Virus record (IMG/VR): IMGVR_UViG_3300025133_000647 | Coordinates: 1 to 22,264 of that record | DNA length: 22,264 nucleotides | From: a virus | Strand: one strand, 5' to 3' | Shown: piece after piece, positions 5,236 through 10,079 of the stretch | Layout: each line of letters begins with the position of its first letter | Position numbering within the stretch: position 1 is the stretch's first letter | The notes under the pieces: generated by a model | Database searches by the model: none | The model's input: only the letters and a program-made list of their open reading frames with translations | What the model was told of the DNA's origin: nothing | Made by a program: the position numbers and the translations under genes

Positions 5236-6129
5236 ATGTCTAAAAATACGACAAGTACACAAGAAACTAAAGACGATAACTTAATGGGAATGTTAAATAC
5301 TTTTAACGAACCATCTAGCTCAGAAGAAGTAAATGTGGAAACTGAAATAGAATCCGAAACAGAAGAAGCTATTGAGCTTTCAGAAGAAGAAATAACTCAA
5401 AAAGAAGAAGAAGCTGTAGAAGAAGTTAAGAAATGGCTTATTGATAATAAGTTTGAAGATACCGAAGAAGGTCGAGATAAGCTTGCTGATGCATATAAGA
5501 ATATTCAAAGTGCAAAAGATAAAGCAGAAGGCGAACTTCGTGAAAAAAGTTCAAAGTATGAAAAACTTGAAGTGATTGATTCTTGGTTGCAAAAGAATCC
5601 TCATATTGTAGAAAAATTGCAAGAAGAAGCTAACAAGCAAGAAGCGGGGGGTCCGCCTCAAAAGCCGGAAGATTATGAAATACTAGAAGAAGCAAGCGAT
5701 GGCTCTTCTTCCCAAGTCTGGCGACAGGAATACGACCAATGGCTAATTGACCAAGGCGCACAGAAAGCAATGAAACAATTTGAAGGTGTAAGGCAACAAG
5801 AAAGTCAAGTTAAAGCACGACAAGCTGAAATCAATGAACTTAAATCACTTGGTATGACGGAAGAAGAAATACAATCATACTATGGTTTTATGAAAAGTCC
5901 GGAAAACGTAACAACTTCTAATATGGTTAAGGTGTGGAAGGTTCTGAATGGAAAAGAAGAAAGTGTAAATCCTCCTTCAGAAAAAGAAAAAGCTGGTCAA
6001 AGCAAAGTACTTGAAATGGAAAAGGTTCAAAGTGGAGCCTCAGTTGAAGGCAAACCAACTCCTGTCAAGAAACCTGCTGAAAAAGAATTAGATGACTTTA
6101 TGAAGGGGATATTGCAATTTAGCAAATAG
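5236..6129 (+). CDS. Capsid scaffolding protein
   Basis: This 297-residue, very acidic protein sits directly between the portal and major capsid genes. It is rich in Glu and Lys, largely helical, and has no hydrophobic core typical of an enzyme. The N-terminal 60 residues are disordered-looking and acidic. A coiled-coil-prone middle covers about 75-130, and the C-terminus carries a Lys-rich tail (VKKPAEKELDDFMKGILQFSK). Basic C-terminal helices of scaffolds usually contact the coat protein. It has no visible protease motif. A good ribosome site, AGGAG at 5225-5229, is six bases before ATG. The role is inferred from composition, length and position, all of which agree. Confidence 0.85.
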   Translation: MSKNTTSTQETKDDNLMGMLNTFNEPSSSEEVNVETEIESETEEAIELSEEEITQKEEEAVEEVKKWLIDNKFEDTEEGRDKLADAYKNIQSAKDKAEGELREKSSKYEKLEVIDSWLQKNPHIVEKLQEEANKQEAGGPPQKPEDYEILEEASDGSSSQVWRQEYDQWLIDQGAQKAMKQFEGVRQQESQVKARQAEINELKSLGMTEEEIQSYYGFMKSPENVTTSNMVKVWKVLNGKEESVNPPSEKEKAGQSKVLEMEKVQSGASVEGKPTPVKKPAEKELDDFMKGILQFSK

Positions 6130-6156: not shown

Positions 6157-7611
6157 ATGCCAAATACATATGGTGCCGGAACTGCAACACAGTTCTCTGA
6201 CGGCACACAAAGGCAAGTACTCGAATTAGGTCCAAAGATTTATTATTACAATGAATCCGTAACACCTTTGCTATCTATTTCTGGTCGTGCAGGCACAGTT
6301 GGAACTCCTGTACCGATTTTTGAATGGATGGAAGACGAGTACTTCATTAAAAGAAGTATCAAAACTGAAATTACAAGCACAGATGTAACTGATACTGCAA
6401 CTGCTGGAATTAATGGCGATAATGCTATTGTTAAATTCCGCAGACAAGCACAGGTAGAAGCATTTGAAGTTGGTGGAATTTATGCTGCATCTGTAGCTGG
6501 TGGTTCTGCTGCTTTAACAACTGCTGTAACACACTTTATTTGTGTTGCAATAGGTAAAGATGTTAACCTAGCAAGTCCAAGTGATAAGCATGTTCAATTT
6601 TTAAGTGCGCACAAGCACGCATCATTGAATGCTTATAATGTTGAAGCTGTAGCTGATGGTACTGATATGATTACTGCTGACGCTTCCGGTGTTCTTACCT
6701 TAACATACGTTGCAACCGCTGGTCAATTTTATGACAACGCTGTAGCAACTACTTACTATGGAAATGACCCAATGGGATTTGGCGAAGTTAATTTTGCTGA
6801 TGCCGATTATTTCATGGTAGCGGGTGGTAATGGTGAGTACGCTGAAGGTGCTGCTGTTGGTTCTGAAACTCGTAAAAAAGTTCGTAGATTAAAGAATTGT
6901 ACGCAAATCTTTCGCGAGCCTTATACGATTACAAGAACAGCTAGAGTGTCTGACCAATATGGCGGACCAGAACTAGCAAGACTGCAAGCGCGTAAGCTAG
7001 CACAAATTAAAGCAAACGTAGAATACGCTATGCTTTTTAATGGTGCAATTAGCTTAGATGCAACCTCTGCTAACCCTAAAAGAACCTTTGCAGGTTTAGG
7101 TGTTGGTGGAACTGCTGGTGTTATTCAAACTAATAATGCTGATATTGATTCATCATTACAGTTAAATAACTCAAGTGGTACTCAAGCGCATTTTGATGCT
7201 GTAATAGAACATATTTTCCAAGATACAATTGATGGTTCAATGGAAAAGACTGTTTTTGCTTCAAACAAATGGCTATTGAAACTTACAGCAATGGTTCGTG
7301 CTGACTCTTCTAGCAATATAAATGCAATGATGGGCGAAGAAGAAAAAGCTGGATTAAGAGTAATGAGTTATATGGGACCAGTTGGTACATTAAACTTTAT
7401 TCCTCATCCTTTCCTAAAAGGTGCTTATGAAGATTATGCAGTAGCTGTTGACTTTGCTAACTTTGATGCGCGTGTCTTAGCCGAATCTGATTTTCAGCTT
7501 CGCAGAGATATCGTTCAAGATGGTAGTGATGGTCAAACAGACGAGTGGTTAGTTGAGGCAGGTCCTGAGATTCGTCAGGAACAAACTCATGCAATCATGA
7601 AGCTTGTGTAA
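6157..7611 (+). CDS. Major capsid protein, SU10/DUF5309-like
   Basis: The 484-residue protein is the probable HK97-fold shell subunit. Supporting text includes LGPKIYYYNESVTPLLSI near the N-terminus (residues 24-41), EVNFADADYF, and RRLKNCTQIFREPYTITRTA followed by SDQYGGPELARLQARKLAQI and NVEYAMLFNG. The block 'tQIFr...T.tar...G.elar..a..l..i...vEya.lnG' is typical of the DUF5309 capsid family that includes phage SU10. The C-terminal half contains an IEHIFQDTIDGSMEKTVFAS segment and ends in RQEQTHAIMKLV. It has the strongest-looking ribosome site in the window (AGGAG 6144-6148, eight bases from ATG), as expected for the most abundant virion protein, and it is followed by a stable hairpin. 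Confidence 0.92.
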   Translation: MPNTYGAGTATQFSDGTQRQVLELGPKIYYYNESVTPLLSISGRAGTVGTPVPIFEWMEDEYFIKRSIKTEITSTDVTDTATAGINGDNAIVKFRRQAQVEAFEVGGIYAASVAGGSAALTTAVTHFICVAIGKDVNLASPSDKHVQFLSAHKHASLNAYNVEAVADGTDMITADASGVLTLTYVATAGQFYDNAVATTYYGNDPMGFGEVNFADADYFMVAGGNGEYAEGAAVGSETRKKVRRLKNCTQIFREPYTITRTARVSDQYGGPELARLQARKLAQIKANVEYAMLFNGAISLDATSANPKRTFAGLGVGGTAGVIQTNNADIDSSLQLNNSSGTQAHFDAVIEHIFQDTIDGSMEKTVFASNKWLLKLTAMVRADSSSNINAMMGEEEKAGLRVMSYMGPVGTLNFIPHPFLKGAYEDYAVAVDFANFDARVLAESDFQLRRDIVQDGSDGQTDEWLVEAGPEIRQEQTHAIMKLV

Positions 7612-7620
7612 ATAATAGTG

Positions 7621-7645
7621 TAGGGGGGTAATTTTTACCCCCCTA
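7621..7645 (+). terminator. G/C hairpin after the capsid gene
   Basis: TAGGGGGGTAA and TTACCCCCCTA form a perfect 11-bp stem with a TTT loop, starting nine bases after the capsid stop. Six consecutive G-C pairs are striking in such A/T-rich DNA. No T-run follows, so this is not a complete intrinsic terminator. It may act as a leaky terminator, an RNase-resistant 3' end that stabilises capsid mRNA, or a processing site. Phage T7 has a partial terminator just after its capsid gene, an analogous position. Confidence 0.6.
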
Positions 7646-7662
7646 ATACTTAAAGGTTTAAA

Positions 7663-7831
7663 ATGACTGAACAAGAAAAAAAGAAATTAAAATGGTAAGA
7701 ATATTGCTAAAGGAAAAACATCTGCTGCATATTGGGCAAATAAACTTTTTTGGGCAGGTAAAGGTGGGAGCAAAAAAAGTCCACCTAAATCACAAAAGCA
7801 TGTAAAAGGAATAAGGAGACGTAAAGCGTAA
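7663..7831 (+). CDS. Small basic protein in two frames (frameshift)
   Basis: ATG 7663 has a good ribosome site (AAAGG 7652-7656, six bases upstream), but its frame reads only MTEQEKKKLKW before TAA at 7696-7698. The +1 frame is open from 7691 and reads NGKNIAKGKTSAAYWANKLF (20 residues), then a Gly/Lys/Pro-rich basic tail ending IRRRKA. It stops at 7829-7831, overlapping the next ATG as TAATG. This second part has no ATG, GTG or TTG but looks coding. Joining the two gives about 55-56 residues (…KKL[K]NGKNIAKGK…), a compact, strongly basic protein of unknown function. Possible causes are +1 or -2 frameshifting, a natural disabling indel, or an assembly error. Its position after the capsid gene suggests a small virion or assembly factor. 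Confidence 0.5.
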
Positions 7832-8724
7832 TGAGATATCAAGAAGCATACGAAATGGTTGAAGCCGGTTTAAGTAAATCAGCTTTAGGATTTCCAATTA
7901 CAGAGCCTTTAATATCTAGTTTTTTTGATAATAAAGTTCAAGAGGTTGGAGGAAGAGTGGTAAGGAAAAGAAGTTCACAAGAACTATCTACTACTACTAC
8001 AAATGTTTATACATTAACCAATGAAGATGCTAGCATGAGAATATATAAAGTTACGCTTATTGGTAGTAGCGACAGCAAGACTGTTCCTTATGTTAGTGAA
8101 AAAAGATATGCAGAGGGTGCAGATGAAGACACTATACAGAATATTGGTTATTTTGTTAGTGAAGAAAATTCAAGTACTGGCACTATTACAGGTGCAACAA
8201 GTGCCAATCCAATAGTTATTACAAGTAGCTCTCATGGATTAGAGACTGGTGATAAAGTAAAAATAACTGGTATTGTTGGATTGCTTTCTGGTACAGGTGC
8301 TAAAAGTGAAGTTAATGATGTTGTTCATGAGATTACAGTAACAAGTGCAAATGCATTTTCAATTCCAGTTAAAGGCGCTGCTTATGGAACTGCTTATGGA
8401 AGTGCAGGAGCTTGGACCTCAAAAGATATAAAATTAACATTAACTAAAACACCTGATTCTGGAAGTACCTTAAAAGTTTATTATTATGCAAATCCTATGA
8501 CTAAAAATGCAATTACAGATGGAGTAGATTTGCCTGACCAATTAATACCAGCTTGCGTACATTATTCGTTAGCTCATTTTTTATTTTTAGATGGTCAAAT
8601 GCAAATGGGTAGCGGACATTATGGATTAGCAGAAAAAATAGAAAAAGAATTTATAGAGACAAGAAATTCAAGAGAGGCTAAACCAGATATTATACCACCA
8701 CCATTACAGGACTTTATATTCTAA
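7831..8724 (+). CDS. Head-tail adaptor-like protein with FCCH-type insert
   Basis: This 297-residue protein lies where the head-tail adaptor is expected. Residues 1-110 contain a helical start, then a beta region (TNVYTLTNEDASMRIYKVTL). Residues about 116-196 read as an inserted beta module (NPIVITSSSHGLETGDKVKI, then FSIPVKGA) typical of the 'FCCH-like' domain often found in phage structural proteins. After it the first domain appears to resume (KLTLTKTPDSGSTLKVYYYA), followed by the helix DGVDLPDQLIPACVHYSLAH and a charged C-terminal helix. The start overlaps the stop of the frameshifted small gene; AGGAG at 7814-7818 is 12 bases upstream. It could instead be another tail component, but an enzyme role is not suggested. 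Confidence 0.65.
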   Translation: MRYQEAYEMVEAGLSKSALGFPITEPLISSFFDNKVQEVGGRVVRKRSSQELSTTTTNVYTLTNEDASMRIYKVTLIGSSDSKTVPYVSEKRYAEGADEDTIQNIGYFVSEENSSTGTITGATSANPIVITSSSHGLETGDKVKITGIVGLLSGTGAKSEVNDVVHEITVTSANAFSIPVKGAAYGTAYGSAGAWTSKDIKLTLTKTPDSGSTLKVYYYANPMTKNAITDGVDLPDQLIPACVHYSLAHFLFLDGQMQMGSGHYGLAEKIEKEFIETRNSREAKPDIIPPPLQDFIF

Positions 8725-10079
8725 TGAGTACATTTAAAGTAAGAATAGAAGATTATGTTGGGGCAGTAGGTGACGACACTTTTCTAGGTGACGCACTTAC
8801 TGACACAGCAGCAGAAATTATAAGAGCAATACCTGACGATAAGGTTAAAAGTTTTACACAAGAATCTGGAGATATATCAGCAGCTTCTACAAATATAGCT
8901 AATCATAGAATAGTTAGTGTTATTAGAGAACGAGGTACAGATGGAGAGTATGTTGAGTGCAGGGAATTGCCTGTAAAGTATTTTAGAAAAGTTCAAGACT
9001 CTTCAAGCATGTTTGCTGCTAGCGTTGAATCTCCTGTATATATTATTAAGAATAGTTCTATACATGTATTTCCAACTCCTGGAGCAAGTCCAAATTGTTT
9101 TAAAGTTGAAAGTGTTACATTTCCAACTGTAGCTGCAAGTGCTTCAAATATAACGGATAGTCCAGTAGACCCGTTTCCAAACAGTATGGAAGATATGGTT
9201 GTTGTTGGTGCTAGCTCAAAAGCATGTCAATATTTAATGGCTAGAGTAAAAGATTCTATGCCTTCAGAACCTGTTTTAGTACTAGATGATATTACAGTAC
9301 CTATTACACCTAGCAACCCTACTATATCTTTTTCAAATGCAACCATAGGTGATGGGGTTAGTGTTGCTGTAGACTCAATAACTGTAGCTCCTGAAAATGC
9401 AAGTGCTACAAGTTCTACTGGTAGTGGAGATTCTGCTTATACAAAACCTAGTTTACAAGGAACTTCAGACGATTTAACAGATGTTACTGGTGGAACATTT
9501 GGAAGCCCTGCTGTAGATTATGCTACTTGGTGGGATACATTATCAGATATTATAGAAACAGAAGAAGACTCTGAATTAGCTACAGTACAAGTTGCTAAGA
9601 TTAGAAGTTATATAGAAGCTTTTAATGCAGAGGTAAACAGCGCAAGAAATGCAATGCAAGCAACAATTGAAGATGCTAGACTATCAACTCAAGCTAGCAT
9701 AGCTACTGCTGGAGATGCAACACAAGCTTCAATAGCAAATGCTTCTAATGATGTTAATGCTTCTATTTCAAAGATGAGAGAAAGCACAGGAGCTGCAATA
9801 GCAAAAATGTCACAAAGTACTAATGTTAATATTTCAAATGCTGCTAAAACTTTAGAGTCTTCAATACAGGATTACAGTTTAGAAGTAAGTAAATTTGGAA
9901 CAGATATACAAAGATATACTTCTGAAGTAAATACAGCGATTAATGAATACTCAACTGATATACAAAAATATACAGCACAAGTTGATAGATATACTAAAGA
10001 GTATAGTTGGTATCAAGACCAATATATTAGACTTGACGCAAAATTTAAAGAATCATTACAAGTGTTGATTGCTAATTAA
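8724..10079 (+). CDS. Virion protein with adaptor-like head and coiled-coil tail
   Basis: The 451-residue product has three parts. Residues 1-180 resemble adaptor or tail-completion proteins: a helical start (DYVGAVGDDTFLGDALTDTA), beta strands with SPVYIIKNSSIHVFPTPG (103-120), then DPFPNSMEDMVVVGASSKAC (149-168). Residues about 185-265 are a Ser/Thr/Pro-rich linker. Residues about 268-451 form a long helix rich in Ala, Ser, Asn and Gln with regular hydrophobic spacing, a probable coiled coil. Similar three-part proteins are common in uncultured marine phages and have no experimentally known role that I can name. It starts on the stop of the previous gene (TAATG) with no good ribosome site, so translation is probably coupled. 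Confidence 0.65.
   Translation: MSTFKVRIEDYVGAVGDDTFLGDALTDTAAEIIRAIPDDKVKSFTQESGDISAASTNIANHRIVSVIRERGTDGEYVECRELPVKYFRKVQDSSSMFAASVESPVYIIKNSSIHVFPTPGASPNCFKVESVTFPTVAASASNITDSPVDPFPNSMEDMVVVGASSKACQYLMARVKDSMPSEPVLVLDDITVPITPSNPTISFSNATIGDGVSVAVDSITVAPENASATSSTGSGDSAYTKPSLQGTSDDLTDVTGGTFGSPAVDYATWWDTLSDIIETEEDSELATVQVAKIRSYIEAFNAEVNSARNAMQATIEDARLSTQASIATAGDATQASIANASNDVNASISKMRESTGAAIAKMSQSTNVNISNAAKTLESSIQDYSLEVSKFGTDIQRYTSEVNTAINEYSTDIQKYTAQVDRYTKEYSWYQDQYIRLDAKFKESLQVLIAN

Follow-up and report, generated by a model that had tools for sequence, protein, structure and literature searches.

The window analyzed here, a 22,264-nucleotide stretch of a metagenomic viral record (IMG/VR IMGVR_UViG_3300025133_000647), carries downstream of its major capsid protein gene a small gene (7663-7831) that is split between two reading frames. 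Are both frames joined into one protein by programmed frameshifting, or is the gene broken? Comparison with relatives of this phage points to the latter: the feature is very probably a pseudogene left by a recent deletion in a common phage gene and, as such, an ordinary one.

The small gene as read in the window

The locus comprises the following features.

6157..7611, + strand: major capsid protein gene, upstream (SU10_MCP, PF17236; E 4.8e-35)
7652..7665, + strand: ribosome-binding site and start codon of the small gene (AAAGG, then ATG at 7663; from the sequence)
7663..7698, + strand: 5' remnant, with gene codons 1-10, a fused TGG codon and a TAA stop
7691..7692, + strand: deletion junction, where approximately gene bases 31-200 (170 bp) of intact relatives are absent (BLAST and breakpoint fit)
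7691..7831, + strand: 3' remnant in the +1 frame, with the gene's last ~45 residues and TAA (identity to the L006 protein; phrog_7595 match)
7831..8724, + strand: SU10-type adaptor gene, downstream (PF24175; E 4.6e-7), whose start overlaps the remnant stop

A preliminary description of this DNA had reported a ribosome site and an ATG at 7663 followed by a stop after 11 codons, and these elements are all in place: AAAGG precedes the ATG, and the frame that it opens (MTEQEKKKLKW) ends with TAA at 7696-7698. The leader ACTTAAAGGTTTAAAATG before this start also precedes the intact gene in two relatives, L006 and L016. In the +1 frame, the sequence behind a TAA at 7688-7690 stays open from 7691 to the TAA at 7829-7831 (NGKNIAKGKTSAAYWANKLFWAGKGGSKKSPPKSQKHVKGIRRRKA), which overlaps the adaptor gene ATG at 7831 as TAATG. 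This frame had likewise been correctly described as lacking a start of its own, with no ATG, GTG or TTG within 7691-7831; the earliest start of any type under translation table 11 is an ATT at 7703. A given frame of such length stays open in 1.9% of base-composition shuffles. Since the +1 frame alone matches phrog_7595 (E 3.5e-4, profile positions 78-96) and shares 95% identity with residues 71-112 of the intact L006 protein, it truly derives from coding sequence.

An inverted repeat made of a G-run and a C-run lies 3' of the capsid stop at window positions 7621-7645 (GGGGGGTAATTTTTACCCCCC). In close relatives its bases differ while the pairing is preserved (e.g., TGGAGGGTAATTTATTGCCCTCCA in L006), and it is probably a terminator or an mRNA-stabilizing hairpin.

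An intact gene in relatives and a 170-bp deletion

We compared the capsid-adaptor slot in 80 viral contigs fetched with the window capsid protein. The preliminary description had left open whether relatives encode the protein in one frame. Sixteen close relatives do so: their slot holds a single unbroken ORF of 110-113 codons (L003-L006, L011-L019, L021, L049 and L070; the L006 protein is MTIQEKKKLQRVGLTRLNSPKRTPKHATKKGIVAIRENGKIRIIRFGAQGMGHNYSPEARKSFKARHGKNIAKGKTSAAYWANRLFWAGKGGSTKSPPKSQKHVKGIRRRKA). The ORF is also open in L010 and L020, where it runs off the contig end, and a 96-residue version occurs in two distant loci, L071 and L080. The first 10 residues of the family ORF match the first frame of the window and the last ~45 match the second. 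Every intact copy reads through in one frame, and the two-frame arrangement was found in none of these relatives. The two frames were thus rightly taken as parts of one gene set apart by a net -2 (equivalent to +1) change; the joined protein of 55-56 residues proposed from them did not hold, as it would consist of only the two ends of the family protein.

BLAST alignment of the window with L006, the closest intact homologue, is continuous to L006 position 6541 (window 7692) and resumes at L006 position 6711 (window 7692), and it breaks at the same position against L003-L005, L016, L018, L011 and L070. The gene measures 339 bp in L006 versus 169 bp in the window. The 170 absent bp cover codons 11-66 and two further bases, from codon 67, and the breakpoint fits best behind gene base 29 or 30; because 170 equals 3 x 56 + 2 and is not a multiple of three, the remaining frames differ by +1. 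The relatives thus have an intact orthologue at the same locus, and the window has a frame-breaking deletion, which together point to a pseudogene. A miscounted A-run had been offered as the main competitor to recoding. An indel is indeed the kind of event involved; the homopolymer part of that proposal fails, given that relatives hold 170 extra bases encoding 56 further codons.

Allele, artefact or recoding

Could the deletion have arisen during sequencing or assembly, with the living phage carrying an intact gene? Intact relatives are known, and both the window and the only other viral contig with exactly the same 24-base junction (IMGVR_UViG_3300008050_000923, hereafter L082) are metagenome contigs. 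However, 170 missing bp do not resemble a homopolymer miscount, and the breakpoints share ~1 nt with L006 and contain no repeats that an assembler could have collapsed. Recovery of the same junction from a second metagenome contig favors a real allele. L082 aligns gap-free to the window over 12,427 bp with all 62 mismatches inside one patch (9294-9575); these are therefore near-identical strains, and may be the same strain, so that this support is not fully independent. Searches with the strain-specific left and right flanks retrieved only the near-identical L082, and neither flank was found in a contig with an intact gene. Altogether, an artefact is very improbable.

The preliminary description favored a programmed slip, +1 on AAA or net -2, at TTA AAA TGG TAA, which would yield a functional joined protein. 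Protein-like sequence in both frames, the native ribosome site and the retained stop overlap with the next gene would suit such a mechanism. Nonetheless, this proposal is not borne out. All intact relatives are single-frame and none shares the break, so that no conservation of a shift site was found among them; the junction occurs in no viral contig besides L082; and the joined product lacks 21 of the 31 positions invariant in the intact family. The junction has neither a stimulatory RNA structure, the downstream RNA folding no better than shuffles (z -0.65), nor a recognized slippery motif as judged from the sequence. AAA TGG is not known as a +1 site, and the stop sits one codon past the proposed slip. 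A search of the literature on phage frameshifting yielded no case of this kind. We consider a programmed frameshift at this junction extremely unlikely, and equally so that the truncated gene still yields, through a +1 shift, a family member of new, minimal form. The case shows how relatives can reveal a deletion behind a two-frame mini-gene of a metagenomic phage; its value is mostly cautionary, in that recoding should not be called from one genome.

Age and fate of the remnant

Under the deletion reading, the capsid and adaptor genes of the ancestor would have flanked a phrog_7595 gene of 112 codons, in which loss of 170 bp would have brought codon 10 up against the final base of codon 67. 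The native ATG would now give 11 codons before a stop, with the 3' end left in the +1 frame and translated at no more than noise level, if at all. Besides the invariant positions, the deletion costs the modeled intact protein its beta-hairpin (31-46) and the larger part of the helix at 57-72, and loss of this conserved core suggests loss of function. The phrog_7595 profile (1-96) is absent from the window as a single open frame, only its two ends being kept. Judged by its sequence, the window copy is a broken phrog_7595 copy and not a working member. A second, compensating copy was not found in the window, a 22-kb fragment in which such an absence weighs little.

The remnant diverges from its homologues in a purifying manner, with dN/dS of.019/.337 versus L006 and.019/.192 versus L016 (8 and 5 synonymous differences, respectively, and 2 amino acid differences each). 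This suits a deletion that came after most of the remnant divergence, since substitutions that largely predate the deletion would be expected to carry that signature; continued translation of the 3' part under selection would also keep dN low, and 46 codons cannot separate the two. The deletion is thus probably young, and the remnant likely serves now as just leader sequence for the adaptor gene. It is tentatively possible, and compatible with a pseudogene, that the 3' remnant is retained for that gene, either as leader RNA or to aid its translation. An AAGGAG at 7813-7818 and the TAATG overlap sit within the remnant, and L007-L009 likewise keep ~12 first codons, the last few and TAATG. The argument draws only on position and conservation of the last bases, but those bases are coding in relatives too.

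Parallel loss in close relatives

Three contigs whose capsid protein is 95% identical (L007-L009) have also lost most of the small gene, through a different, in-frame deletion of 285 bp relative to the 339-bp gene. The resulting ORF retains the start of the gene with ~12 codons and, at the other end, the last few codons with the TAATG shared with the adaptor start. Its junction occurs in those three contigs only, and the right ends of the 170-bp and 285-bp deletions differ. In the capsid-gene tree, the intact L003-L006 separate the two deletion types, and every bootstrap tree requires two changes; the best-supported branches by themselves force just one. A separate deletion in L007-L009 suggests that the small gene is dispensable in this phage group. 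A widespread small gene beside the capsid gene would thus have been lost at least twice among close relatives.

In L007, the shortened reading frame is a 17-codon ORF in the region 5892-6000 (MTKEENNKFKKLAGSEA), with the same place in L008 and L009. Thirty-three relatives (e.g., L024, L022, L031, L050, L062 and L081) encode another small protein, mostly in the post-capsid slot, as exemplified by L024 4561-4713. Its first ~17 residues (TYGTGATxFSDGSSR) resemble the N terminus of the same phage's major capsid protein (TYGTGTALQFSDGSQR), and a Lys/Arg-rich tail follows this capsid-like part. This protein may have arisen by partial duplication of the capsid N-arm, or may mimic it.

Over 12.4 kb, the window and L082 show 100% identity save for the 62 mismatches within 282 bases (9294-9575) inside the gene at 8724-10079; these mismatches comprise 24 nonsynonymous and 22 synonymous codons with both alleles open. 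Two further near-identical pairs, L004/L005 (~L004 8200-9199) and L008/L009 (~L008 8000-8606), differ mainly in the same segment of this gene, whose product is a probable neck or fiber protein. The patch looks like a hotspot for allele swapping by recombination in a variable domain. We rate this putative hotspot and the candidate capsid N-terminus mimic as more interesting than the deletion pseudogene.

The phrog_7595 family and comparison with known systems

The lost gene belongs to phrog_7595, a family of small phage proteins (L006 profile match, E 3e-25). The intact protein also matches the head-protein family phrog_220 locally (E 1e-9) and found no name in Pfam or NCBIfam. Stretches of this family are abundant (at least 600). 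Relatives occur in 73 phage records, the named ones, identified by tblastn, including Celeribacter phage P12053L, Roseobacter phages SIO1 and CRP-9, Synechococcus phage S-CBS2 and Vibrio phage D274. They mostly do not adjoin a capsid gene of the window type; because no family locus among the matches listed had the same capsid and adaptor neighbors within ~3 kb, the family is not tied to the capsid-adaptor slot. A structural model of the intact protein (mean pLDDT 76) predicts a helix, a beta-hairpin, two helices and a low-confidence basic tail. A fold search of the PDB with this model gave nothing significant; in BFVD its matches included parts of ICP1 ORF125 (F1D1E8) and of an XkdF-like phage protein, with E values of 8.6e-4 and 1.5e-4, respectively, and 33% identity. 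A head-associated role of the intact protein is a reasonable inference from these predicted matches.

Programmed frameshifts of phages are found in tail-assembly chaperone genes. The window resembles them in having two overlapping frames with a short joint, but it has neither a conserved slippery site nor a relative with the same break, and where the joint lies its relatives carry 170 further bases of coding sequence. The phrog_7595 profile is matched both by the intact homologues and by the 3' remnant, whereas the window copy is without codons 11-66 and out of frame. In ICP1, ORF125 is predicted to be a procapsid protease, and gp125 lies in the capsid-morphogenesis cluster of this phage (PMC7567579). 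It and the XkdF-like protein partially match the predicted fold of the intact family; there, however, the matching part is a segment of a longer head protein, whereas the window-type family is encoded by a stand-alone small gene.
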